Shown: positions 43,349 through 53,736 of the stretch, piece after piece
Layout of the letters: the number at the start of each line of letters is the position of its first letter
How positions within the stretch are numbered: the first letter of the stretch is position 1
Assembly (NCBI RefSeq): GCF_900143245.1
Contig: NZ_FRDK01000001.1
Span: 496,001 to 560,000, forward strand
Direction: 5' to 3'
Origin: Flavobacterium fryxellicola
Lineage (GTDB): Bacteria > Bacteroidota > Bacteroidia > Flavobacteriales > Flavobacteriaceae
DNA: 64,000 nt
Position numbers and translations under genes: made by a program
Notes under the pieces: generated by a model
Databases searched by the model: none
Told to the model about the DNA's origin: nothing
The model's input: only the letters and a program-made list of their open reading frames with translations

Positions 43349-43993
43349 TTATTTATTTACGAAATATTGATAACAAATTACCATTAAAAAAGGAATGATA
43401 TTATTTACGCAATGCATTAGTATTGAATACATAATGCCATACTTATTGGCAATATAGCCAAGGTAAAATCCACCTAATATTCTAGGCAAAATTTTTAATA
43501 CTGTATGGGTGTCTAGTGTTTGATAATTTGTTAAATGTAGAAATCCAAAAACAACAGAAGTCAAAAATAAAAAAAGTAAGAAATAATTTGATATGAAATG
43601 ATTGAAAGCTTGCCTAAATTCAAAATTATAAAATAATAATAGACTTAAAGCGACTATTCCTAATAGTATTGGCATTAAAACCCAACGTTGTGAAATAAAG
43701 GTAAATAAAATTACAATTAAACAGACTGTCCATAAAATAATATTTAATTTATTATTTATAACAAACAAACCTCTCATCGAAAATTCTTCTATAATGGGTA
43801 TTATTATAACAAATATCAGTAGTTTTTCAGGCGTTCTTAAAAGTTTTAAGTCATCTGCATCAAATAATGGTTTATTAAATATCAGATACGTTGAAATTAA
43901 AAAAGCAAAACTTAATATAGTAACAATTAAAAAAAGGTATATAAAATCGAAAACAAAGTCTTTTTCTTGAAATTTATTGCAAAATATTTGCAT
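43349..43993 (-). CDS. CPBP intramembrane protease (module A)
   Basis: A 214-residue protein with six to seven hydrophobic helices. PIIEEFSMRG is the EExxxR motif, with FGFLHLTNY and the HCVNNIIPF His/Asn motif of the CPBP (CAAX protease / bacteriocin-processing, Abi) family. In bacteriocin loci such proteases give self-immunity or process the leader. Its place right after two double-glycine peptides (same strand) supports that use. It is not closely similar to the CPBP of module B outside the motifs. Confidence 0.88.
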   Translation of the reverse strand: MQIFCNKFQEKDFVFDFIYLFLIVTILSFAFLISTYLIFNKPLFDADDLKLLRTPEKLLIFVIIIPIIEEFSMRGLFVINNKLNIILWTVCLIVILFTFISQRWVLMPILLGIVALSLLLFYNFEFRQAFNHFISNYFLLFLFLTSVVFGFLHLTNYQTLDTHTVLKILPRILGGFYLGYIANKYGIMYSILMHCVNNIIPFLMVICYQYFVNK

Positions 43994-44109: not shown

Positions 44110-44265
44110 TTAATCGAACCAACCAGATACTGTCTCTACAACTGTATTATATGCTTTTTTGATAGCGCATCCAACAGCATGAACAGCGTATCCTACATCT
44201 TCAACTAAACCGCCACCATTAATAGTGATCATTTCAACATGCGTCAACTCTATAAGATTTTTCAT
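44110..44265 (-). CDS. Double-glycine leader bacteriocin-like peptide A2
   Basis: A 51-residue peptide. The leader MKNLIELTHVEMITINGG ends in Gly-Gly, the cleavage site of C39-peptidase ABC exporters. The mature part (33 residues, GLVEDVGYAVHAVGC...) is small, hydrophobic and amphipathic with one Cys, like class II bacteriocins. It starts 19 bp after the A1 peptide stop and precedes a CPBP protease. No intact exporter is in the window, so export would need one elsewhere. Confidence 0.82.
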   Translation of the reverse strand: MKNLIELTHVEMITINGGGLVEDVGYAVHAVGCAIKKAYNTVVETVSGWFD

Positions 44266-44284
44266 GATATTTATTTAATATTTG

Positions 44285-44461
44285 TTAACAACCACAGTTA
44301 CCGTAAGAATTGTATCCGTCCATAAATCTTTTTTTGAGATTATCCCAATTTTTATCTAAGTCTTCTAAAGCTTTTTGGGCATCAGCAATCCAGCCACCCC
44401 CATCAACTTCTTGTACTTCCTGAGAATTAAGCTCTACTAAATTCAAACTATCTAAATTCAT
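44285..44461 (-). CDS. Double-glycine leader bacteriocin-like peptide A1
   Basis: A 58-residue peptide with leader MNLDSLNLVELNSQEVQEVD-GG and a 36-residue mature part rich in charged and aromatic residues that ends in NSYGNCGC (two Cys). The leader is nearly the same as that of the module B peptide (MNLNNLNLVELNAQESSKVD-GG), while the mature parts are unrelated, as expected for a shared export signal with diversified toxins. It is the first gene of the minus-strand module A unit. Confidence 0.85.
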   Translation of the reverse strand: MNLDSLNLVELNSQEVQEVDGGGWIADAQKALEDLDKNWDNLKKRFMDGYNSYGNCGC

Positions 44462-45240: not shown

Positions 45241-46086
45241 CTAAAAGTAGGATTTAAAATGATTTGGTAAAACTGAGCTTTCTACAATTAGTTTGTCTGT
45301 AGCCGAAATGGTAGCAATAGACTGCGAAGCATTCAAGAATGAGCCGTTTTGAATTCCCGAGAAATTCTCGATTGTTCCTGTTAGCGGTGCAATAATATAA
45401 TAGTTTTGAGCTTCCACTTTTATTTTTTGTAGCGTTCCGTTTAAGTTTTGGAGTTGCATTTCCAGTTCTTGTTTGTTGTTTTGCCAAAGGCTGCGTTGGC
45501 TTTTCTCTAAACTAGAAAGCGCTTGTTTTGTATACGTATAATCAAAACTGTATTTCTCGAATTCAGCCTTGGCAATTATTCCTTTGTCGTGTAACTGCTT
45601 GTTGCGGTCGTACACTATTTTAGCTTGTGCAATTTTACTTTGTAACTCTTCTTTTTTACTACTGTAGCTAAGCCACTCTTGCTGCATAGCTGACGTTTTT
45701 AAGCCTTCAGCACTGCCTTGTGCAACTTGAGTTAAATCATTAATTTGATCTTGAATAGTAGCTGCAGCCACTTGATTTGTAGCTTTCTCGGTATTTAAGT
45801 TTTCTTGTGTAATAGCAACTAAGGTATCGCCTTGCTGTACCACTTGATTGTTCTTGAGTTTTATAAAAGTCACTTTACCATTGACTAAACTACTTACAGG
45901 TACATTATCAGTAGTACTGCGGATAATACCGCGACTCTGACTGCTAATGTCTATTTTGATAATAGGTAATAATGCCAGAAAAATAATTGTAGCCAGAATC
46001 AATACCAAGTAAATAGAGATACTCTTGGTTTTGTTTTTGGTGATAAGATTTTCTAGGGTATTTATGGGGTCTGAACTTAGGTTCGT
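45241..46086 (-). pseudogene. HlyD-family adaptor, module B, start lost and C-terminus truncated
   Basis: The frame covers one membrane helix, the IKIDISSQSRGIIRSTTDNVP block, a lipoyl-like half motif (VNGKVTFIKLKNNQVVQQGDTLV), a long coiled coil and the second lipoyl half (YYIIAPLTGTIENFSGIQNGSFL), ending HFKSYF where the beta-barrel domain should continue. Three bases after the preceding stop the frame begins ACG-AAC-CTA, where ATG would be expected, and no ATG, GTG or TTG occurs before a TTG inside the membrane helix (46008). A protein of about 255 residues from that TTG would lack a proper anchor. It is probably non-functional, though the core is intact. Confidence 0.8.
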
Positions 46087-46089
46087 TTA

Positions 46090-46311
46090 TTACAGATTAT
46101 TATTGTTATAAACATCTATAATCTTTTTTGATTTTTCAAAATCGCTCTCATTAACCTTTAAAGTGGAATTCATATATCCACCAGAATTAACTATCCAAGG
46201 CGCTAAAGTAGACATTATTTGATTTTCTATGAATGAGATAATACCATTCTCTTTTAATAAATTATGTAACATTAATATTTTGTAATGTTCATCAGTATAT
46301 AGATTTATCAT
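46090..46311 (-). CDS. Small DUF2007-like protein
   Basis: A 73-residue protein. LLKENGIISFIENQIMSTLAPWIVNSGGYMNSTLKVNESDFEKSKKII follows the DUF2007 pattern (helix, xGIxxxxxN, then lxVxexdxexAxxil), a family of putative signal-transducing or regulatory-like proteins. It overlaps the CPBP gene by 4 bp (ATGA) and precedes the HlyD frame by 3 bp, so it belongs to the module B operon. Possible immunity role; this is inference only. Confidence 0.72.
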   Translation of the reverse strand: MINLYTDEHYKILMLHNLLKENGIISFIENQIMSTLAPWIVNSGGYMNSTLKVNESDFEKSKKIIDVYNNNNL

Positions 46312-47039
46312 TTTCTAGTTGTATTTGAAATAAATATATGTTTTACTTTGCTATATAAGAAAAAAAGTATTGTAAGCGTAACAATTAAATTAATTATAAA
46401 AAACAACCCTAAATACATGGAATTATTAAATTCGATTAAGATTAACCGTCCAATAAAACCAAATAAATTGACGAAAAAATGAAGTATAATAGTTACTGCT
46501 ATATTAAAATCTTTAGAAAAAATAAATCCAAAATATAGCCCTATAAAAAGACCTAAAATAATTTGTTGTAAATTTACATGTATGAGCGCAAAAATAAATG
46601 CGGATATAATAATTGATTTTTTACTACTATATGTTTGCAGAAGTGATTTTAGTAAAATATTTCTAAAAAGAATTTCTTCAAAAATGGGGGCAATCAATAA
46701 ACCAGCAAGAATGGATGATATATTTAATTTTGAAGTCTCAATAGGAAAAAAATAAAATCGTATCGGAAGTAAAATAACCACACTTAATAACCACACCATA
46801 ATTACCGAAAACAATAATTTTTTGTAGTCGATAGGATAAAATTTATAACTTGTTTTATTCTTTTTAATTCGATTTATTATATGATAAATTGCGATAAATA
46901 ATGTGTAAAAAATTATTGAGAAAATTAATACTTTTTGATTACCCTTACTATACTTATCTAATATATATATAAAAGGAGAAGAAATTAAAATAGCTAATAG
47001 AACAAGAAATATAAAATGGAAAATATTTTTTGGGAACAT
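46308..47039 (-). CDS. CPBP intramembrane protease (module B)
   Basis: A 243-residue protein with seven to eight helices. PIFEEILFRN (EExxxR), FALIHVNLQQ (FxxxH) and LHFFVNLFGF (HxxxN/D) are the three CPBP metalloprotease motifs. It is downstream of a double-glycine peptide and upstream of DUF2007-like and HlyD genes on the same strand. A hairpin with a T-run separates it from the peptide gene. Confidence 0.9.
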   Translation of the reverse strand: MFPKNIFHFIFLVLLAILISSPFIYILDKYSKGNQKVLIFSIIFYTLFIAIYHIINRIKKNKTSYKFYPIDYKKLLFSVIMVWLLSVVILLPIRFYFFPIETSKLNISSILAGLLIAPIFEEILFRNILLKSLLQTYSSKKSIIISAFIFALIHVNLQQIILGLFIGLYFGFIFSKDFNIAVTIILHFFVNLFGFIGRLILIEFNNSMYLGLFFIINLIVTLTILFFLYSKVKHIFISNTTRK

Positions 47040-47145: not shown

Positions 47146-47343
47146 TTAAAATTGATTGGCAATCCATGCTGAACCATTAACTGCCATAACACCCAAGTTC
47201 CATACTGCTTCGCCAGCATATTGTAATTCATTATCAGTTCCAGACCAATAAAGACTATAATATCCATATTTATCTGCACCACCATCAACTTTACTTGATT
47301 CTTGAGCATTAAGCTCCACTAAATTTAAATTATTTAAATTCAT
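47146..47343 (-). CDS. Double-glycine leader bacteriocin-like peptide (module B)
   Basis: A 65-residue peptide: leader MNLNNLNLVELNAQESSKVD-GG (22 residues) and a 43-residue mature part (ADKYGYYSLYWSGTDNELQY..., no Cys) rich in aromatic and small residues with a GxxxxNGSAW-like end. The leader is almost identical to peptide A1. It is the first gene of the module B minus-strand unit and has the TTCTCGAGAA palindrome upstream. Confidence 0.88.
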   Translation of the reverse strand: MNLNNLNLVELNAQESSKVDGGADKYGYYSLYWSGTDNELQYAGEAVWNLGVMAVNGSAWIANQF

Positions 47344-47818: not shown

Positions 47819-48859
47819 ATGACTAACCGACAATTCATAAAAATAGTATTTTTGGTACTTTTTCCATTTTTTTTATGGTCGCAATCTTCTCAAAAAATTA
47901 TTCAAACCGATTATTATGAGGATTTAAAACAAGCATTTATTAAGAGCCATGGCAATGATAAAAAGCAATTGCATTATGCTAATGCCTACATCAGAAGGGC
48001 AATAATAGAAAAAAGTAACATAAACCTTTCAAGGGGTTATTTTTTACTATCGCATTTATTTGAAGGAGCAAAATGCATACAGTATTTAAATACTTCCATT
48101 AAGTATGCTACAAATACAAATGATATAAAATTTCCAGCATTATCTTATTCCAAAAAAGGATATGAACTAAAAAAGCAGTTTCGATTTGATGAAGCATTAG
48201 CTAATTTTTTTATGGCTGAAAAGTATGCAAAAAAGAATAATTTAGATTTTTATTACAATGTCAAACATTCTATTGGAATGCTTCGTTCTGAAGAATTAGG
48301 TCAGGTCGAAGAGGCGCTTGTCCTTTACAGAGAATGTTTTAATTACTATAAAGGGAAAAATGTTAGGTCTCCTGAGTATGCAACTGAATATCATAATGTT
48401 TTATTCGCTTTAGCTGATGCTCACAAATCATTAAAAAATTTAGATTCCACAAGTTTTTATAATAAAATGGGTTATCAAGAGTCGAAAGCTACCAAAGACC
48501 AATACTATATTTCTTATTTCATTTTAAATGAAGGAGCTAATCAAGTATTAAAGAAAAACTATAAAGCTGCTTTAGATAGTATAAATAAGGCATTACCTCA
48601 AATAATATCAGATAAAAATTATGGCAATATACTTGCTTCCTACTTTTATTTAGGAAAGTCTTACGCTGGTATGGGTAATGAAAAAAAAGCGATTCAAAAT
48701 TATATAAAAGTAGATTCAATGTATGTTATAAATAAGAGAATCATACCTGAATTCGTTGGTGGTTACTCTTATTTAATTGAGCATTATAAACAAACTGGAG
48801 ACAAAGAAAAGCAGTTAAAATTCTTATCTAAATTTATGAAAATAGATAGTCTTTTGTAA
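47819..48859 (+). CDS. TPR sensor half of a TPR-TM-AraC regulator (cut off by an in-frame stop)
   Basis: 346 residues: a signal peptide (IVFLVLFPFFLWSQ), then TPR-like repeats (ALSYSKKGYELKKQFRFDEALANFFMAEKYAKKN; ALVLYRECFNYYKGKN; ASYFYLGKSYAGMGNEKKAIQNYIKV). Flavobacteria commonly have one long protein with periplasmic TPRs, one membrane helix and a C-terminal AraC domain. Here TAA at 48857-48859 ends translation, but the frame continues without any other stop into the AraC half at 48935-49522. So this is either a nonsense-mutated regulator or one that works as two pieces. Confidence 0.8.
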   Translation: MTNRQFIKIVFLVLFPFFLWSQSSQKIIQTDYYEDLKQAFIKSHGNDKKQLHYANAYIRRAIIEKSNINLSRGYFLLSHLFEGAKCIQYLNTSIKYATNTNDIKFPALSYSKKGYELKKQFRFDEALANFFMAEKYAKKNNLDFYYNVKHSIGMLRSEELGQVEEALVLYRECFNYYKGKNVRSPEYATEYHNVLFALADAHKSLKNLDSTSFYNKMGYQESKATKDQYYISYFILNEGANQVLKKNYKAALDSINKALPQIISDKNYGNILASYFYLGKSYAGMGNEKKAIQNYIKVDSMYVINKRIIPEFVGGYSYLIEHYKQTGDKEKQLKFLSKFMKIDSLL

Positions 48860-48934
48860 CGCGACTACAAACAACTAAGTAAAGTTTTACTCAAAGAATA
48901 TGATACCCCTCATTTATTTGCAAAAAAAGAATCC

Positions 48935-49522
48935 TTGATACAATCCTTGCAAAAAAAACAATCGGCCTCTTCGACCTGGATTTTGATTTTAATAGGTAGT
49001 CTCGGTGGGTTGATAGGTTATCAATATTATTTGAAAAAACAATATCGTAAACGATTTGAGGCTATTATTCATCCTGCTACACCTATACTAGCAAGTGGTA
49101 CTACAGCTGAAAAAAGCGATAGTGCAGCAGAGGAAAATAAAATGCAAGAGCAACAGTGGCTTCCAGTAGAGGTAGTTAATCAGTTATTAGAGAAGTTAGC
49201 CCAATTTGAACTTAACAAAGGATTCTTAGAAAAAACTATTTCCATTCAAAAAGTAGCTTTACAGTTAAATACAAACACCAAATATTTATCTAAAGTCATT
49301 AACGAACAAAAAGGAAAAATGTTTGTGCATTACATCAATGAACTCAGAATAAATGAAGCTGTGGTTCAATTGCAGGCCCAATCCATTTTGCGTAATTATA
49401 CTATGCCATACTTAGCTAATGAATTTGGTTTCAATTCTGCGGAAGCTTTTTCTACCGCTTTTTTTAAAAAATATAAAATTAAGCCTACTTTTTTCATCAA
49501 AGCACTAGAAAAAGAAAATTAA
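48935..49522 (+). CDS. TM plus AraC DNA-binding half of the split regulator
   Basis: 195 residues from a possible TTG start: a membrane helix (STWILILIGSLGGLIGYQYY), a linker, and a C-terminal AraC/HTH_18 domain with KVALQLNTNTKYLSKVINEQKG (first HTH) and MPYLANEFGFNSAEAFSTAFFKKYKIKPTFF (second HTH). It is in the same frame as the TPR half; the codons between (48860-48934, RDYKQLSKVLLKEYD) are open and protein-like. Without re-initiation it would not be made. It is the natural candidate to bind the 21-bp palindromes of this island. Confidence 0.75.
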   Translation: MIQSLQKKQSASSTWILILIGSLGGLIGYQYYLKKQYRKRFEAIIHPATPILASGTTAEKSDSAAEENKMQEQQWLPVEVVNQLLEKLAQFELNKGFLEKTISIQKVALQLNTNTKYLSKVINEQKGKMFVHYINELRINEAVVQLQAQSILRNYTMPYLANEFGFNSAEAFSTAFFKKYKIKPTFFIKALEKEN

Positions 49523-49628: not shown

Positions 49629-49636
49629 TACTTTTG
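49629..49636 (+). promoter_or_regulatory. Candidate -7 box (TACTTTTG) for the precursor-protease unit
   Basis: TACTTTTGC matches TAnnTTTG, 28 bp before the precursor ATG. No -33 TTG is seen, in keeping with a promoter that needs an activator at the upstream palindrome. Confidence 0.5.
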
Positions 49637-49663: not shown

Positions 49664-49840
49664 ATGAAAGCCGAAAAAAAACAAAAAGAAAACAAATCAA
49701 AGTTTAATTTAGAAAAAATGAAAGTAGCCCAATTGGATAATTTACATTTGATAAATGGTGGTGATAGTGCTGCTATTGCAAATGGAGGCGATGATAAAAC
49801 TATTACTCAGTCAAATAAAACAATGACTACAACCTTTTAG
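49664..49840 (+). CDS. Lanthipeptide-like (GG-Bacteroidota type) RiPP precursor without cysteine
   Basis: A 58-residue peptide. The leader KFNLEKMKVAQLDNLHLINGG resembles class I lanthipeptide leaders of Bacteroidota (KLxLxKxxIAxLxxxxxxxxxGG). The 25-residue core (DSAAIANGGDDK, then TITQSNKTMTTTF) has two Ser and six Thr but no Cys, so lanthionine rings cannot form. It is followed 14 bp later by an S8 protease and then by a dehydratase stump, as in a class I lanthipeptide locus. It might be dehydrated only, processed differently, or a decayed precursor. Confidence 0.78.
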   Translation: MKAEKKQKENKSKFNLEKMKVAQLDNLHLINGGDSAAIANGGDDKTITQSNKTMTTTF

Positions 49841-49854
49841 TTTTTTACAAAATT

Positions 49855-51528
49855 ATGAAATCATTGATTCTATCTTTTTTATTACTTGCTATTTTAATAA
49901 GTTGCAGTTCGAGCAAAACTAATACAGACTTAAATTTAATTAAAGACAACGAAGTTTCCAGTTATAAAAATTTAGATTCTTTGAATTGGTTTCATAAAGA
50001 AATAGATAAAAATGGTAATACAGGAATGTTTCTCAGCAAATGGAAAATGCAGAACATCCAAAAATTGCGATCCAAAGAAATTATTGTTGCGATTATTGAT
50101 TCACCTGTAGATGTCAATCACGATTTAATAAAGAATAAATTATGGATAAACAAAACTGAAATTCCTAATAATGGACAAGATGATGATAAAAATGGTTACG
50201 TAGACGACGTTAATGGTTGGAATTTTATTGGAACAAAAGACAATGGATATTTAGTTTTTTCCAATTTTGAGTTTGTAAGGATCTTAAGAAAATGGGGGGA
50301 TTTGCAAACCGACCAATTAGTTAAAAACGAAGCTGGAAATGAAAAGGAATATGATCGAGCACTAAGAAAGTTTAGAGAACAGCATGTTTATTACGAAAAC
50401 TGGCTAAAATCATTAAAATATAGTGTAAAAACTTATCCATCCGCCAAAGATAGTCTAAGGCATTATTTTCCGAACGAGGATTATACCTATCAACAACTAG
50501 ATAGCATGTATAAAAAACACAAAATCAATGATAAGACCTTCAGACAAAGAAGGGAAGATCTTGATTTTGATCTGGGTACAATGATAGCTTTTATGAAAGC
50601 AAGACTCGATTTTGGTGAAAAGTCATTAAAAGATGTGGAAGATAGCAAGCAAGAGGTGGACTCCATCTTAAATAAATCCTTAAACTTTAAATTCGATGAG
50701 CGACTTTTAATAAAGGATAGCTCTGGTCAATTTGAGAAAGGATATGGTAATAATACACTTTCTAAAAACAGTACAGGAAAAACAACTACATATAGTCACT
50801 CTACGAAAGTTTCTGGAATAATTGCAATGATTGTACCTTCAAACGTAAAGATAATGCCATTGGTAATAGCGGCTAATGGTGATGAACACGATCAGGATAT
50901 TGCGATGGCAATTCGATATGCGGTAGATAATGGTGCTAAAATTATTAATATGTCATTCGGCAAAGAATTCGCTTTGAACAACGATTTGGTTTACTCAGCT
51001 ATGAAATATGCCGCTGATCACAATATTTTATTGGTACATGGAGCAGGAAATGATCAATTTAATGTAGATGAAAATCCGTACTATCCAACAGATATTGATT
51101 ACAATACTGAAGCTAAAGAAGTTTGTAACAACTTTATAAATGTTGGTGCATCTAGCTCTAAAACCGATACCACATTAGTAGCATCATTTTCTAACTATGG
51201 CAAGAAAAATGTAGACTTATTTGCACCCGGTGATCAAATTTATACCTCAGTTGGAGGCAACAGCTATGGATTTGACTCAGGAACTTCATTAGCAGCACCA
51301 ATGGTTTCAGGAACAGCCGCTCTAATCTGGTCGTATTATCCAAAACTTTCTGCAAAACAAGTCAAACAAATTATTTTAGAGTCTGGAACGGCGTATGACA
51401 TTGACGTTTTGGTTCCCGGAGGCGAAGGTAAAAAAGCAAAGTTTAGTGAATTGTCTAAATCAGGAAAAGTTCTCAATGTTTATAATGCGATGCAACTAGC
51501 TGAAAAAGTAAGTAAAAGCAAAAGATAG
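49855..51528 (+). CDS. S8 (subtilisin-like) serine protease lipoprotein
   Basis: A 557-residue lipoprotein (signal ending LLAILISC, Cys17). The catalytic triad is visible: Asp82 in AIIDSPVD, His315 in YSHSTKVSGI (normally HGTHVAGI, so the usual Gly is Ser) and Ser478 in SGTSLAAPMVSG. A large insert of about 200 residues between Asp and His, rich in charged helices, is unusual for S8 enzymes but seen in Bacteroidota lipoprotein subtilases. Its position after the precursor suggests leader removal outside the cytoplasm. Its stop overlaps the dehydratase fragment by one base. Confidence 0.9.
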   Translation: MKSLILSFLLLAILISCSSSKTNTDLNLIKDNEVSSYKNLDSLNWFHKEIDKNGNTGMFLSKWKMQNIQKLRSKEIIVAIIDSPVDVNHDLIKNKLWINKTEIPNNGQDDDKNGYVDDVNGWNFIGTKDNGYLVFSNFEFVRILRKWGDLQTDQLVKNEAGNEKEYDRALRKFREQHVYYENWLKSLKYSVKTYPSAKDSLRHYFPNEDYTYQQLDSMYKKHKINDKTFRQRREDLDFDLGTMIAFMKARLDFGEKSLKDVEDSKQEVDSILNKSLNFKFDERLLIKDSSGQFEKGYGNNTLSKNSTGKTTTYSHSTKVSGIIAMIVPSNVKIMPLVIAANGDEHDQDIAMAIRYAVDNGAKIINMSFGKEFALNNDLVYSAMKYAADHNILLVHGAGNDQFNVDENPYYPTDIDYNTEAKEVCNNFINVGASSSKTDTTLVASFSNYGKKNVDLFAPGDQIYTSVGGNSYGFDSGTSLAAPMVSGTAALIWSYYPKLSAKQVKQIILESGTAYDIDVLVPGGEGKKAKFSELSKSGKVLNVYNAMQLAEKVSKSKR

Positions 51529-51705
51529 TGTTAGCCTATACCATTAAGCCTTTTTCGCAATATGTATTGCGAACACGCTTATTGCCACTTTCTTTTTACA
51601 CCAAAATTATGGAAAAGGAAGCGGTGACTTATGTTTTTGAAGTCCTGAAAGATCCTCTAATTTATGAAGCCATAAGGCTGGCTTCTCCCGATTTGAGTGG
51701 GATTT
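51528..51705 (+). pseudogene. N-terminal stump of a lantibiotic dehydratase (LanB)
   Basis: Starting at GTG 51528, about 59 codons match the conserved LanB N-terminus: YTIKPFSQYVLRTRLLPLSF (compare vRTPLLPxxx) and IYEAIRLASPDLSGIF (compare EAixLASPxLyxxl). Complete LanB proteins have ~700-1000 residues. Homology ends at 51705, exactly where the sequence becomes identical to the region downstream of the neighbouring duplicated lipoprotein gene. So the duplication removed the rest of lanB. Confidence 0.82.
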
Positions 51706-51708
51706 TCG

Positions 51709-52686
51709 TTAAAACCCCACAACCTCAAATTTGCCATTACTGATGCTATGTAGCAGCATTCCATTATCATAAACTTGCAAATTTATTTGGCCTTTGGTTA
51801 CTTTTAGACCGTTTATAATCAAGTGTTCTTTTATGGTATAACTACCTGATGTTTGAAATTTTTTCCAGTCTTGGGGACGAATCCATAATAATTGAGTGGC
51901 TCTAAAAATTCCAATATATTGTTCTAAATCGATTCGGTTTTCTAGACTGTTCTGTTCAAAAGCATAAGTTCCTTTATCTAAATTCCATAAGTCCTTACTA
52001 GATTTGATGATGGCGCGGTATCCGTTAGTTGAAAGAAAAGAAAATTGGTAAGGGTTTGTTTTTAAATTTGGATCATGGGAAGCACAAGGTCTATTAGTAA
52101 AAAAAATTAAGGTGTTTGTTGTAAAATTTAATTGTGATATAAACGTATCGCACTTTATAGACTGGATATCATTAATAGTTACAACTCCATTAATTTTTTT
52201 TCTCGGTTGATTTTTATCTAAGGAATTAAAATCAGTTTCTACTTTTAATAGCTCACCTTCATACTCAAAATGCAGATACTTTTTGGCTTCATCATATTCA
52301 AAGTTAGAAACAGTTAATAATCCATCTGTTTTAAAATCAGGCGTTTCGTAAGGATTGTTATTAAAACGATAGTCGAATAATTGTACATTTCCAATTCCGC
52401 CATTTTTCAAAAGGTTAATCACTATTGTAAAATTTTCTTCAGCAGATTTGTCCGACTGTACACCCACAGAAATCCTTTCGCAATTTTCAATAGCACCTAC
52501 TGAGCCATTGGTAAATTTAAATTGGTCATTATCGATTTTAATTTCGAAAGAACTTGTTATTTCCTCTTTCTCTATGTCATCCTTATCGCAGGAAATAAAT
52601 AGTAGTAAAACACTTAAAAATATAACTTTGATTAAAAACCGCCCAAGGTTGTTGCTTTGAACGATTGTGTTTGTTTTGTTTATCAT
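51709..52686 (-). CDS. Hypothetical lipoprotein, duplicate 1
   Basis: A 325-residue lipoprotein (LSVLLLFISC) with beta-strand-rich sequence and no family I recognise. It is paralogous to the next gene over its full length, with the last ~120 residues nearly identical (DLWNLDKGTYAFEQN, NRIDLEQYIGIFRATQLLW, KKFQTSGSYTIKEH). ATG 52686 is chosen; the longer frame to 52767 reads through the 3' end of duplicate 2 in another phase. It lies 19 bp downstream of duplicate 2 and convergent with the lanB stump. Confidence 0.78.
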   Translation of the reverse strand: MINKTNTIVQSNNLGRFLIKVIFLSVLLLFISCDKDDIEKEEITSSFEIKIDNDQFKFTNGSVGAIENCERISVGVQSDKSAEENFTIVINLLKNGGIGNVQLFDYRFNNNPYETPDFKTDGLLTVSNFEYDEAKKYLHFEYEGELLKVETDFNSLDKNQPRKKINGVVTINDIQSIKCDTFISQLNFTTNTLIFFTNRPCASHDPNLKTNPYQFSFLSTNGYRAIIKSSKDLWNLDKGTYAFEQNSLENRIDLEQYIGIFRATQLLWIRPQDWKKFQTSGSYTIKEHLIINGLKVTKGQINLQVYDNGMLLHSISNGKFEVVGF

Positions 52687-52705
52687 TTTCAACCTTTGAT
52701 TTTCG

Positions 52706-53686
52706 TTAAAACCCCACAACCTCAAATTTTCCATTACCAACAGTATAAAGCAGCATTCCATTGTCATATACTTGCAAGTTCATTTCGCCTTTTGTTACTT
52801 TTAGACCATTTATCATAACCTGTTCTTTTATGGTATAACTGCCTGATGTTTGGAATTTTTTCCAGTCGATGTCTCTGACCCATAATAATTGAGTCGCTCT
52901 AAAAATTCCAATATATTTTTCTAAATCGATTCGGTTTTCCAGCGTGTTCTGTTCAAAAGCATAAGTTCCTTTATCTAAATTCCATAAGTCCTTACTAAAT
53001 TTGATGATGGCGCGGTATCCATTGTCAGAATAAAACCTAAAATCATACGGATTTACTTTTAAATTAGGATCATGTGATCCAGCGTGGTGGTTAGTGGAGA
53101 AAGTATAGGTATTTGTTTTAAAATTTAAGTCGCTAATAAAACTAGTACAAGTTGTAGCTTTTAACTTATTTACGATAATTTTCCCATTAATTTTCTTCCT
53201 TTTTTGGGGCTGATCCAATGAAGCAATGTTCGTTTCGACTTCTAGGAGTTCTCCGGAAAAATCAAAATTTAAATATTTTGTTGATTCGTCGTACACAAAG
53301 TTATTAACTGAAAGTAAACCTCTCAAATTAAAATCTGGAGTGTCAAATGGTTTAGTGCTCTCACCAAATCTAGTGTAACTAATTTTTCTGACAATTCCTT
53401 TCTTGGTAATAGATAATTCAAAAATAAAATGAGGCTCATTTTTCCCTCGATCATAAATAAAGGAAACAAAAATAGTGTTGCAGTTTTCATTTACAACAAA
53501 AGATTCATTTTCTAATTTAAATTTTTCATTTTCAATTTGTAGTTCGATAGATTGCTCTATTACCTTATCGATTGTTTCTTCTTTCTCACACGATAATAAA
53601 AACAAGAAGAGAACTAGAGAAGCTATTTGCATTAAAAACCGCGAAAGGTTCGTAGTTTGAGCGATTGTGTTTGTTTTATTTGTCAT
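52706..53686 (-). CDS. Hypothetical lipoprotein, duplicate 2
   Basis: A 326-residue lipoprotein (LVLFLFLLSC, then EKEETIDK). Same family as duplicate 1; start MTNKTNTIAQTTNLSRF versus MINKTNTIVQSNNLGRF. ATG 53686 is used. It is the first gene of its unit and has a -7 box (53729-53736) and a 21-bp palindromic operator (53770-53790) upstream, so it is tied to the bacteriocin island regulation. Role unknown; an immunity or surface-binding lipoprotein is conceivable. Confidence 0.78.
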   Translation of the reverse strand: MTNKTNTIAQTTNLSRFLMQIASLVLFLFLLSCEKEETIDKVIEQSIELQIENEKFKLENESFVVNENCNTIFVSFIYDRGKNEPHFIFELSITKKGIVRKISYTRFGESTKPFDTPDFNLRGLLSVNNFVYDESTKYLNFDFSGELLEVETNIASLDQPQKRKKINGKIIVNKLKATTCTSFISDLNFKTNTYTFSTNHHAGSHDPNLKVNPYDFRFYSDNGYRAIIKFSKDLWNLDKGTYAFEQNTLENRIDLEKYIGIFRATQLLWVRDIDWKKFQTSGSYTIKEQVMINGLKVTKGEMNLQVYDNGMLLYTVGNGKFEVVGF

Positions 53687-53728
53687 TGAACTTGTATTGC
53701 TTGAAAAAGCATTTTTAATTTCTGATCC

Positions 53729-53736
53729 CAAAACTA
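53729..53736 (-). promoter_or_regulatory. Candidate -7 box (TAGTTTTG, minus strand) for the lipoprotein pair
   Basis: TAGTTTTGG on the minus strand matches TAnnTTTG, 43 bp before the ATG at 53686 and 44 bp from the centre of the palindromic operator. Confidence 0.5.

Follow-up and report, generated by a model that had tools for sequence, protein, structure and literature searches.

The window locus and its closest relatives

The stretch of DNA studied here, called the window throughout, comprises 64,000 nucleotides from Flavobacterium fryxellicola (contig NZ_FRDK01000001.1, positions 496,001 to 560,000; the source assembly has 37 contigs and is listed as 99.99% complete). On its plus strand lie, in this order, a split gene for a TPR/AraC-type regulator, a gene for a short precursor peptide, a gene for an S8 subtilase lipoprotein and the stump of a lanB dehydratase gene (Table 1). 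Comparison with related loci suggests that this is probably a degenerate copy of a distinct Flavobacteriaceae locus for a ribosomally synthesized and post-translationally modified peptide (RiPP), with a split LanB and no LanC, a Cys-poor precursor with a GG-type leader and an S8 protease, the intact members of which would make linear dehydrated peptides. Fifty-five loci, the window included, were compared by translated search, and loci are cited by L numbers where they need to be told apart.

The closest named relatives of the S8 protein are those of F. xanthum DSM 3661 (90% identity) and Flavobacterium sp. ACAM 123 (82%), and the three form one clade of the S8 tree (Shimodaira-Hasegawa-like approximate likelihood ratio test, SH-aLRT, 100). 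ACAM 123 (L035) carries a frame-broken regulator gene, the precursor, S8, a lanB of 732 codons and a spaB_C of 284 codons, followed by a gene on the reverse strand. F. xanthum carries the precursor, S8 and a frame-broken lanB; the contig starts within its regulator gene, and its spaB_C match stops short of the contig end. Because both have orthologues of precursor, protease and lanB and keep their order, the arrangement in the window is not a chance reading. All three precursors lack Cys and end in TITQSNKTxTxT(F/Y). Since that of ACAM 123 does so beside an intact lanB and spaB_C, Cys was already absent before lanB was lost. A sequence-only reading of the window had associated the precursor with LanB, which this comparison bears out, and had considered that Cys was lost together with the enzyme, which it does not support.

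The core that follows LINGG in the window precursor has 25 residues and, as that reading had noticed, 2 Ser, 6 Thr and no Cys; Ser and Thr thus make up 8/25 of the core, against a background of 13.5% in the S8 protein and 13.9% in LanB. An alternative TTG start at 49634 is possible. The lanB piece begins with a GTG at 51528 and overlaps the S8 stop codon. It aligns with residues 1-55 of the ACAM 123 LanB (45% identity, E = 3e-8) and with residues 4-56 of the F. xanthum LanB (72% identity, E = 7e-19), the similarity ending at 51695, and from about 51701 onward the sequence is the 3' end of a gene on the opposite strand; the earlier description of lanB as destroyed was therefore correct. Because the ACAM 123 relative of this reverse-strand gene follows spaB_C, the simplest history of the window would be a single deletion that began at lanB codon 55 and ran to the end of the reverse-strand gene. 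An in-frame TAA at 48857-48859, on which the sequence-only reading was silent, splits the regulator into 346 and 220 amino acids (aa); across this stop the regulator aligns unbroken with an intact relative (55% identity).

The S8 protein matches Pfam Peptidase_S8 (E = 2e-37). Its Asp82, His315 and Ser478 stand where the sequence-only reading placed them and, together with Asn399, are invariant across 56 aligned S8 sequences; by triad and fold the protein belongs to the S8 subtilases. The structural model (mean predicted local distance difference test, pLDDT, 85) shows a subtilase fold into which a long stretch, for the most part helical (helices within residues 139-285), is inserted between Asp82 and His315. 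Its best structure matches were deseasin MCP-01, the top solved structure, and Plasmodium SUB1; the lanthipeptide protease LicP (4zoq) ranked 17, and EpiP (3qfh) was also among the matches. The ratio of nonsynonymous to synonymous substitution rates (dN/dS) is about 0.16 in all three pairs drawn from the window, F. xanthum and ACAM 123. The window lineage has 37 synonymous and 26 amino-acid-changing substitutions and that of F. xanthum 33 and 20, with no clear relaxation. These rates indicate purifying selection on S8 overall, be it before or after lanB was lost. A 420-bp tract of S8 (50264-50683) is identical to F. xanthum between clearly diverged flanks, a pattern that shows recent recombination and blurs the S8 rate estimates. 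Counting the source genome, 35 of 299 genomes of the genus have a close relative of S8 (best E <= 1e-140). S8 alone was rejected as a marker of the locus since it is too widespread, with some match in 297 of 299 genus genomes (E <= 0.001) and 268 of 299 family genomes (E <= 1e-90).

Table 1. Features of the locus and of the genes bordering it (positions within the window)
Feature	Position	Strand	Description	Basis
Regulator gene	47819..49522	+	N-terminal hydrophobic (signal) segment, TPR repeats, membrane helix, AraC-type HTH_18	Domain searches; model of intact relative L036
Precursor peptide, 58 aa	49664..49840	+	Leader ends ...KFNLEKMKVAQLDNLHLINGG; 25-aa core	Open reading frame call and orthologues
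S8 subtilase lipoprotein, 557 aa	49855..51528	+	Asp82/His315/Asn399/Ser478 intact	
lanB stump, first ~55 codons of a Lant_dehydr_N-type protein	51528..51695	+	Remainder and spaB_C gone	
Junction of lanB and the 3' end of the reverse-strand gene	51696..51702	.	Relative of that gene follows spaB_C in ACAM 123	
Gene bordering the junction, function unassigned	51709..52767	-	81% identical to the copy behind spaB_C in ACAM 123	
Second, diverged copy of the junction-bordering gene	52706..53731	-	52% identical to the ACAM 123 copy	

The reverse-strand gene is present in the window as tandem copies (51709-53731), and its ACAM 123 relative has no Pfam match. Relatives of the junction-bordering gene lie behind spaB_C in L035, L061 and L065, and directly behind S8 in L055.

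The LanB pair, precursor cores and LanC in related loci

The usual order of the locus in Flavobacterium is regulator, precursor, one to three S8 genes, lanB and spaB_C. The ACAM 123 partners match Lant_dehydr_N (E 4e-133) and Lant_dehydr_C/TIGR03891 (E 2e-65 and 2e-61); most of LanB can be aligned with MadB and NisB, and SpaB_C aligns with MadB and 5ehk. Seven SpaB_C residues, R51, H58, R60, R62, E104, R105 and H250 in ACAM 123 numbering, are invariant in 33 of 33 sequences. We take these to be the elimination residues of NisB, with the catalytic roles assigned by the work on that enzyme. The LanB motif R..R.TPFG is present in 32 of 32 sequences, R.TPFGLF in 29 and GRF in 30. PEARL-type ligases are truncated and have no elimination domain. 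With full Lant_dehydr_N and Lant_dehydr_C domains and invariant elimination residues, the pair in the relatives looks dehydration-competent and not like a truncated ligase of that type. The intact relatives, with glutamylation and elimination domains and their conserved motifs, belong to the LanB dehydratases; the window, with its 55-codon stump, does not. A domain search of the whole source genome gave no LanB, although the stump was also missed, so other short fragments could be as well; the same model matched 31 of 35 Flavobacterium genomes and the control genomes gave no match. A LanB hidden elsewhere in the source genome was rejected on this profile search.

On an S8 tree of 70 rows, with remnant rows left out and each tandem S8 copy of a locus counted separately, the lanB-intact and lanB-absent rows need eight changes. 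Remnants of lanB loss are seen as SpaB_C ends beside S8 in L066, L067 and L092, as a lanB piece in L074 and as the stump in the window. S8 outlives these losses, and a few loci have S8 without regulator or peptide (L073, L080, L086 and L046). The LanBs of ACAM 123 (L035:5221-7419) and F. hiemivividum (L039:9713-11911) are 93% identical and their S8 proteins only 56% alike, from which we conclude that lanB was exchanged between loci in at least one case. If our reading holds, LanB would have been lost repeatedly, and exchanged at least once, around a unit of regulator, peptide and protease. A quick tree of 68 LanB rows places the 34 S8-type LanBs of Flavobacterium in one clade (SH-aLRT 100), deeper support being weak and some long branches meeting. 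A programmed break was considered for lanB, which is interrupted near residue 350-360 in F. xanthum as well as in F. anhuiense (L056); decay is preferred because the former has a frame change and the latter an in-frame stop.

A precursor gene, intact or frame-broken, occurs in 44 of the 55 compared loci and none was found in 10, L052 being outside the tally. The 34 S8-type LanB loci of Flavobacterium include 27 lanB-intact loci that supplied 28 countable precursors, the cores of which have on average 25 residues and 5.4 Ser plus Thr. Eight cores have no Cys, 18 have one and two have two. Outside this count are L036 (Cys-less core, leader frame broken), L063 (leader frame broken), L065 (no precursor found), L052, L056 (one Cys, stop in lanB), L085 (one Cys, no GG) and L093 (one Cys). 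Ten further precursors come from loci with a broken or missing lanB, five with no Cys and five with one; the start of that of L066 is not in frame in the locus. Upstream of S8 in L036, L063 and L066, an A-rich leader start is out of frame with the rest, be it through slippage, a sequencing error or decay. In nine regulator-type loci of other genera the peptides that follow the regulator have 0-2 core Cys. Candidate peptides of LanC-type loci have mostly 2-10, the exceptions being one with a single Cys (L139) and three doubtful open reading frames (ORFs) with none. About 1 kb upstream of lanB in L147, on the opposite strand, are four more similar ORFs of 65-67 aa, three with two core Cys and one with none.

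The window precursor reached no cut-off in NCBIfam or Pfam, its sole listed match being Imm61 (E = 0.1), and that of ACAM 123 reached none among known leader families. Class I leader models did not match the window precursor, and one of four relatives matched NF038153, below its cut-off. Because no family cut-off is reached, the label "class I-type leader" given by the sequence-only reading rests on synteny and motif. Judged by its relatives, the precursor is a member of a Cys-poor, LanC-less LanB family.

LanC was found in one of the 55 compared loci, L078, where it belongs to a separate LanC-type cluster adjoining the S8-type one. S8 lies within 6 kb of the LanB in 42 rows, and LanC is absent over the same distance in 41 of these, the exception being the second, LanC-type LanB at L078. 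Genome-wide, a LANC_like domain is missing from 13 of 23 lanB-intact Flavobacterium genomes, and a genome-wide search of the source genome and of F. xanthum found none in either. The window thus has neither the LanC cyclase nor the core Cys of a class I lanthipeptide, and since LanC is absent even when the locus is intact, a lanthipeptide is the wrong expectation for this locus type. The comparison proposed by the sequence-only reading, with orthologous precursors beside intact lanB and lanC, yielded a Cys-less core beside the intact lanB of ACAM 123 and no lanC in the locus type.

A search anchored on SpaB_C gave matches in 23 of 299 genomes of a family-level sample, 22 of them outside the genus of the window, and all 23 loci were examined. 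Eleven have LanC without S8 (L137-L144, L146, L148 and L169), seven have S8 without LanC (L147, L150-L152 and L154-L156), five have neither (L145, L149, L153, L167 and L168) and none has both. In the seven S8 loci the order is lanB, spaB_C, regulator, peptide and S8, with S8 in two pieces in L151. L149 and L153 keep regulator and peptide, L153 ending at a contig edge. Genome-wide, LanC was found in none of nine genomes of other genera with a regulator-type locus and in all four searched that have LanC-type loci; among four further genomes it was absent in G060 and G492 and present in G400 and G337. Regulator matches occur also at some LanC-type loci (three LanB rows), so the regulator alone does not define the locus type.

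Upstream of the window locus are three small ORFs with GG-type bacteriocin-like leaders, all on the minus strand (44110-44265, 44285-44461 and 47146-47343). Near them are a HlyD-like ORF of 255 aa (45241-46008) and two CPBP-like membrane-protease ORFs (43349-43993 and 46308-47039), named by reading the sequence. A search for the C39 domain (PF03412), which covered the source genome, gave no match there, the control matching in 8 of 14; the three small peptides therefore look orphaned.

Interpretation and alternative explanations

In the intact loci the LanB pair would, to judge by its domains and motifs, glutamylate and then dehydrate Ser and Thr of the core. The peptide would then be exported, a putative step, and the lipid-anchored S8 protease, as synteny suggests, would remove the leader. 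The product would be a linear peptide that carries dehydro-residues but none of the thioether rings that LanC makes. The window has lost spaB_C completely and lanB except for about 55 codons, and a stop splits its regulator gene; precursor and S8 are the genes that survive intact. Such a locus could make only an unmodified peptide, and by its gene content the window copy is a relic with a conserved protease. The sequence-only reading had offered a dehydrated linear RiPP for a core that never had Cys; this fits the Cys-less relatives, but the window is unlikely to yield such a product by the known route, given that the genome search detected no LanB domain.

Several observations weigh against this interpretation. 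Of the 28 counted precursors, 20 retain Cys, one or two each and often within an SSxxC close to the C-terminus, and in these a ring may be formed without LanC. Ten of the 23 lanB-intact Flavobacterium genomes carry LanC elsewhere, which could act in trans. The local LanC search used two good queries only (L098 and L103), although these found LanC in 10 of 10 loci fetched around Pfam LanC matches, two of which were the sources of the queries. The opposition of LanC and S8 in the SpaB_C-anchored loci (Fisher's exact p = 0.005) supports the interpretation, but the test ignores shared ancestry. No exporter was recognised in the compared loci. The precursor dN/dS of 0.47-0.68, as against 0.16 for S8, comes from few changes, the value of 0.68 against F. 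xanthum from four. Finally, several loci keep regulator, peptide and S8 without LanB, which may make LanB an add-on and not part of the core. To these several loci, though not to the lanB-intact ones, applies the outcome that the sequence-only reading had named as refuting it, namely a peptide that is not associated with LanB.

Could the window simply hold the remnant of an ordinary class I lanthipeptide locus, with a core that once had Cys and a LanC that was lost or acts from elsewhere? Membership in the LanB family, the FNL(E/D) and GG features of the leader, the one Cys kept in most relatives and the LanC genes located elsewhere would all agree with this. We nevertheless regard it as improbable, since the closest relative with intact lanB and spaB_C is Cys-less too, LanC lies within 6 kb of none of the 41 S8-type LanBs and is missing from the other-genus genomes with regulator-type loci, and the LanC-type loci of the same family have Cys-rich candidate cores. 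Hardly less unlikely is that the window precursor and S8 are a working pair that, after the loss of lanB, handles an unmodified peptide. The low dN/dS of S8 without clear relaxation would agree with this, as would the repeated appearance of LanB-less loci on the S8 tree and the remnants at L066, L067, L074 and L092. However, the regulator is broken as well, the genome has no C39 exporter domain and the precursor has the higher dN/dS against F. xanthum just given; the loss of lanB may be too recent for decay to show, and the recombination tract blurs the rates.

A different emphasis, compatible with a LanC-less RiPP locus and which we put forward tentatively, is that the conserved unit is regulator, peptide and S8, and that the peptide is a secreted signal. 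S8 would mature the peptide, the TPR domain would bind it and switch the AraC-type output domain, and LanB would decorate it in some lineages. A regulator match is present in 48 of the 55 compared loci whether or not they have LanB, and regulator and GG-type peptide occur together without LanB in loci such as L087, L089, L091, L051 and L096. L199, from another genus, has the regulator, a Cys-less peptide and S8, with no LanB match in 17.6 kb. The S8 branches that fall outside the part of the tree with LanB (L051, L087, L095 and L096) come from loci without LanB, the separating forks having support of 84-88 and not being starred; these loci have a GG- or AG-type peptide, and their regulator similarity ranges from 43% (L087) down to 27-30%. 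Among new family-level S8 loci, of which 28 of 29 were assessed, a leader-type peptide lies beside S8 in three of the four that bear a regulator; the 24 without one gave two pattern matches, neither leader-like by eye, although of these 24 control loci L170 and L173 have no upstream region, L180 and L185 have a short one only, and L170 belongs, as a tandem copy, to L150, a locus that bears a regulator. On the other side, the regulator is broken while S8 is intact in both the window and ACAM 123, and there are the S8 loci mentioned above that have neither regulator nor peptide.

The model of the L036 regulator has a TPR superhelix (mean pLDDT 86) joined to a long helix and an AraC-type domain. 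By hydropathy this protein has a signal-like and a membrane segment, while in L065 and L075 only one of the two is above threshold; the prediction is that the TPR domain lies outside the inner membrane. The matches to the TPR model include the Rap-pheromone complexes 4gyo, 6t46 and 8rtc, but these stand behind eukaryotic LGN/Pins, and the fold is generic; it was rejected as proof of peptide binding. The model is compatible with a peptide-sensing role. Taken to its full extent, the signalling idea would be that Flavobacteriaceae signal by a linear peptide that is secreted and often dehydrated by LanB, matured outside the inner membrane by the lipid-anchored subtilase and read there by a membrane-spanning TPR/AraC regulator. 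We consider this speculative, a shade more so than the conserved unit as such. If true, it would be a Gram-negative form of peptide signalling with a lanthipeptide dehydratase but no rings, and the window would be such a system in decay.

Comparison with known systems

LanB is usually taken as the mark of a lanthipeptide. On the LanC-less RiPP reading, linear dehydropeptides matured by an S8 protease would be products of Flavobacterium and of some related genera, and a handful of genes would be enough to test what the peptide does. We found no description of a LanC-less, S8-linked LanB locus in Flavobacterium in the literature as searched by title and beginning of abstract, a coverage outside which most subscription papers fall. 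As far as their accessible parts go, one survey was anchored on LanC, required core Cys and described GG leaders with LxLxKx5L in Bacteroidetes (PMC7268733), and would thus miss this locus type on both counts; another screen was driven by LanC (PMC3091789). The accessible text of PMC10352776 reports that LanB is absent from Bacteroidales and that genes with TPR domains lie near some RiPP clusters; that of PMC9576775 has nothing on this locus type, and that of PMC9765709 has none of four terms on Bacteroidetes or membranes. Split LanB is mentioned in the accessible part of PMC7296275, and, in theirs, PMC12241602 describes the two domains of MadB and PMC10885120 NisP and LicP.

Among known systems, the split-LanB class I pathways of the pinensin type, a lanthipeptide pathway of Bacteroidetes, share with the present loci a glutamylation protein with a separate elimination protein, a Bacteroidota host and a GG-type leader. 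The leader motif here is F/LxLxKx5L-like, where that of Bacteroidetes LanAs is given as LxLxKx5L in the accessible part of PMC7268733. Unlike the pinensin type, the present loci have no LanC, which is often missing from the genome as well, their cores have 0-2 Cys, and an S8 lipoprotein and a TPR/AraC regulator are built in.

Goadsporin and the thiopeptides likewise have a split LanB and LanB-type dehydration without LanC. The gene set here is much smaller, and the conserved order holds no YcaO or pyridine-forming gene, which were not searched for by family. The S8 leader proteases NisP, EpiP and LicP have the same subtilase fold and catalytic residues; the protease described here differs in being lipid-anchored, in the largely helical insert between Asp and His and in having deseasin MCP-01 as its top solved match. 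The RRNPP systems of Firmicutes also have a peptide adjoining a TPR regulator and a subtilase nearby, and the synteny of the relatives together with the TPR model places a TPR receptor beside a propeptide here as well. RRNPP receptors, however, are cytoplasmic and rely on re-import of the peptide, which the predicted topology does not match: here the TPR domain is predicted to lie outside the membrane, the output domain is of the AraC type and the host is Gram-negative.

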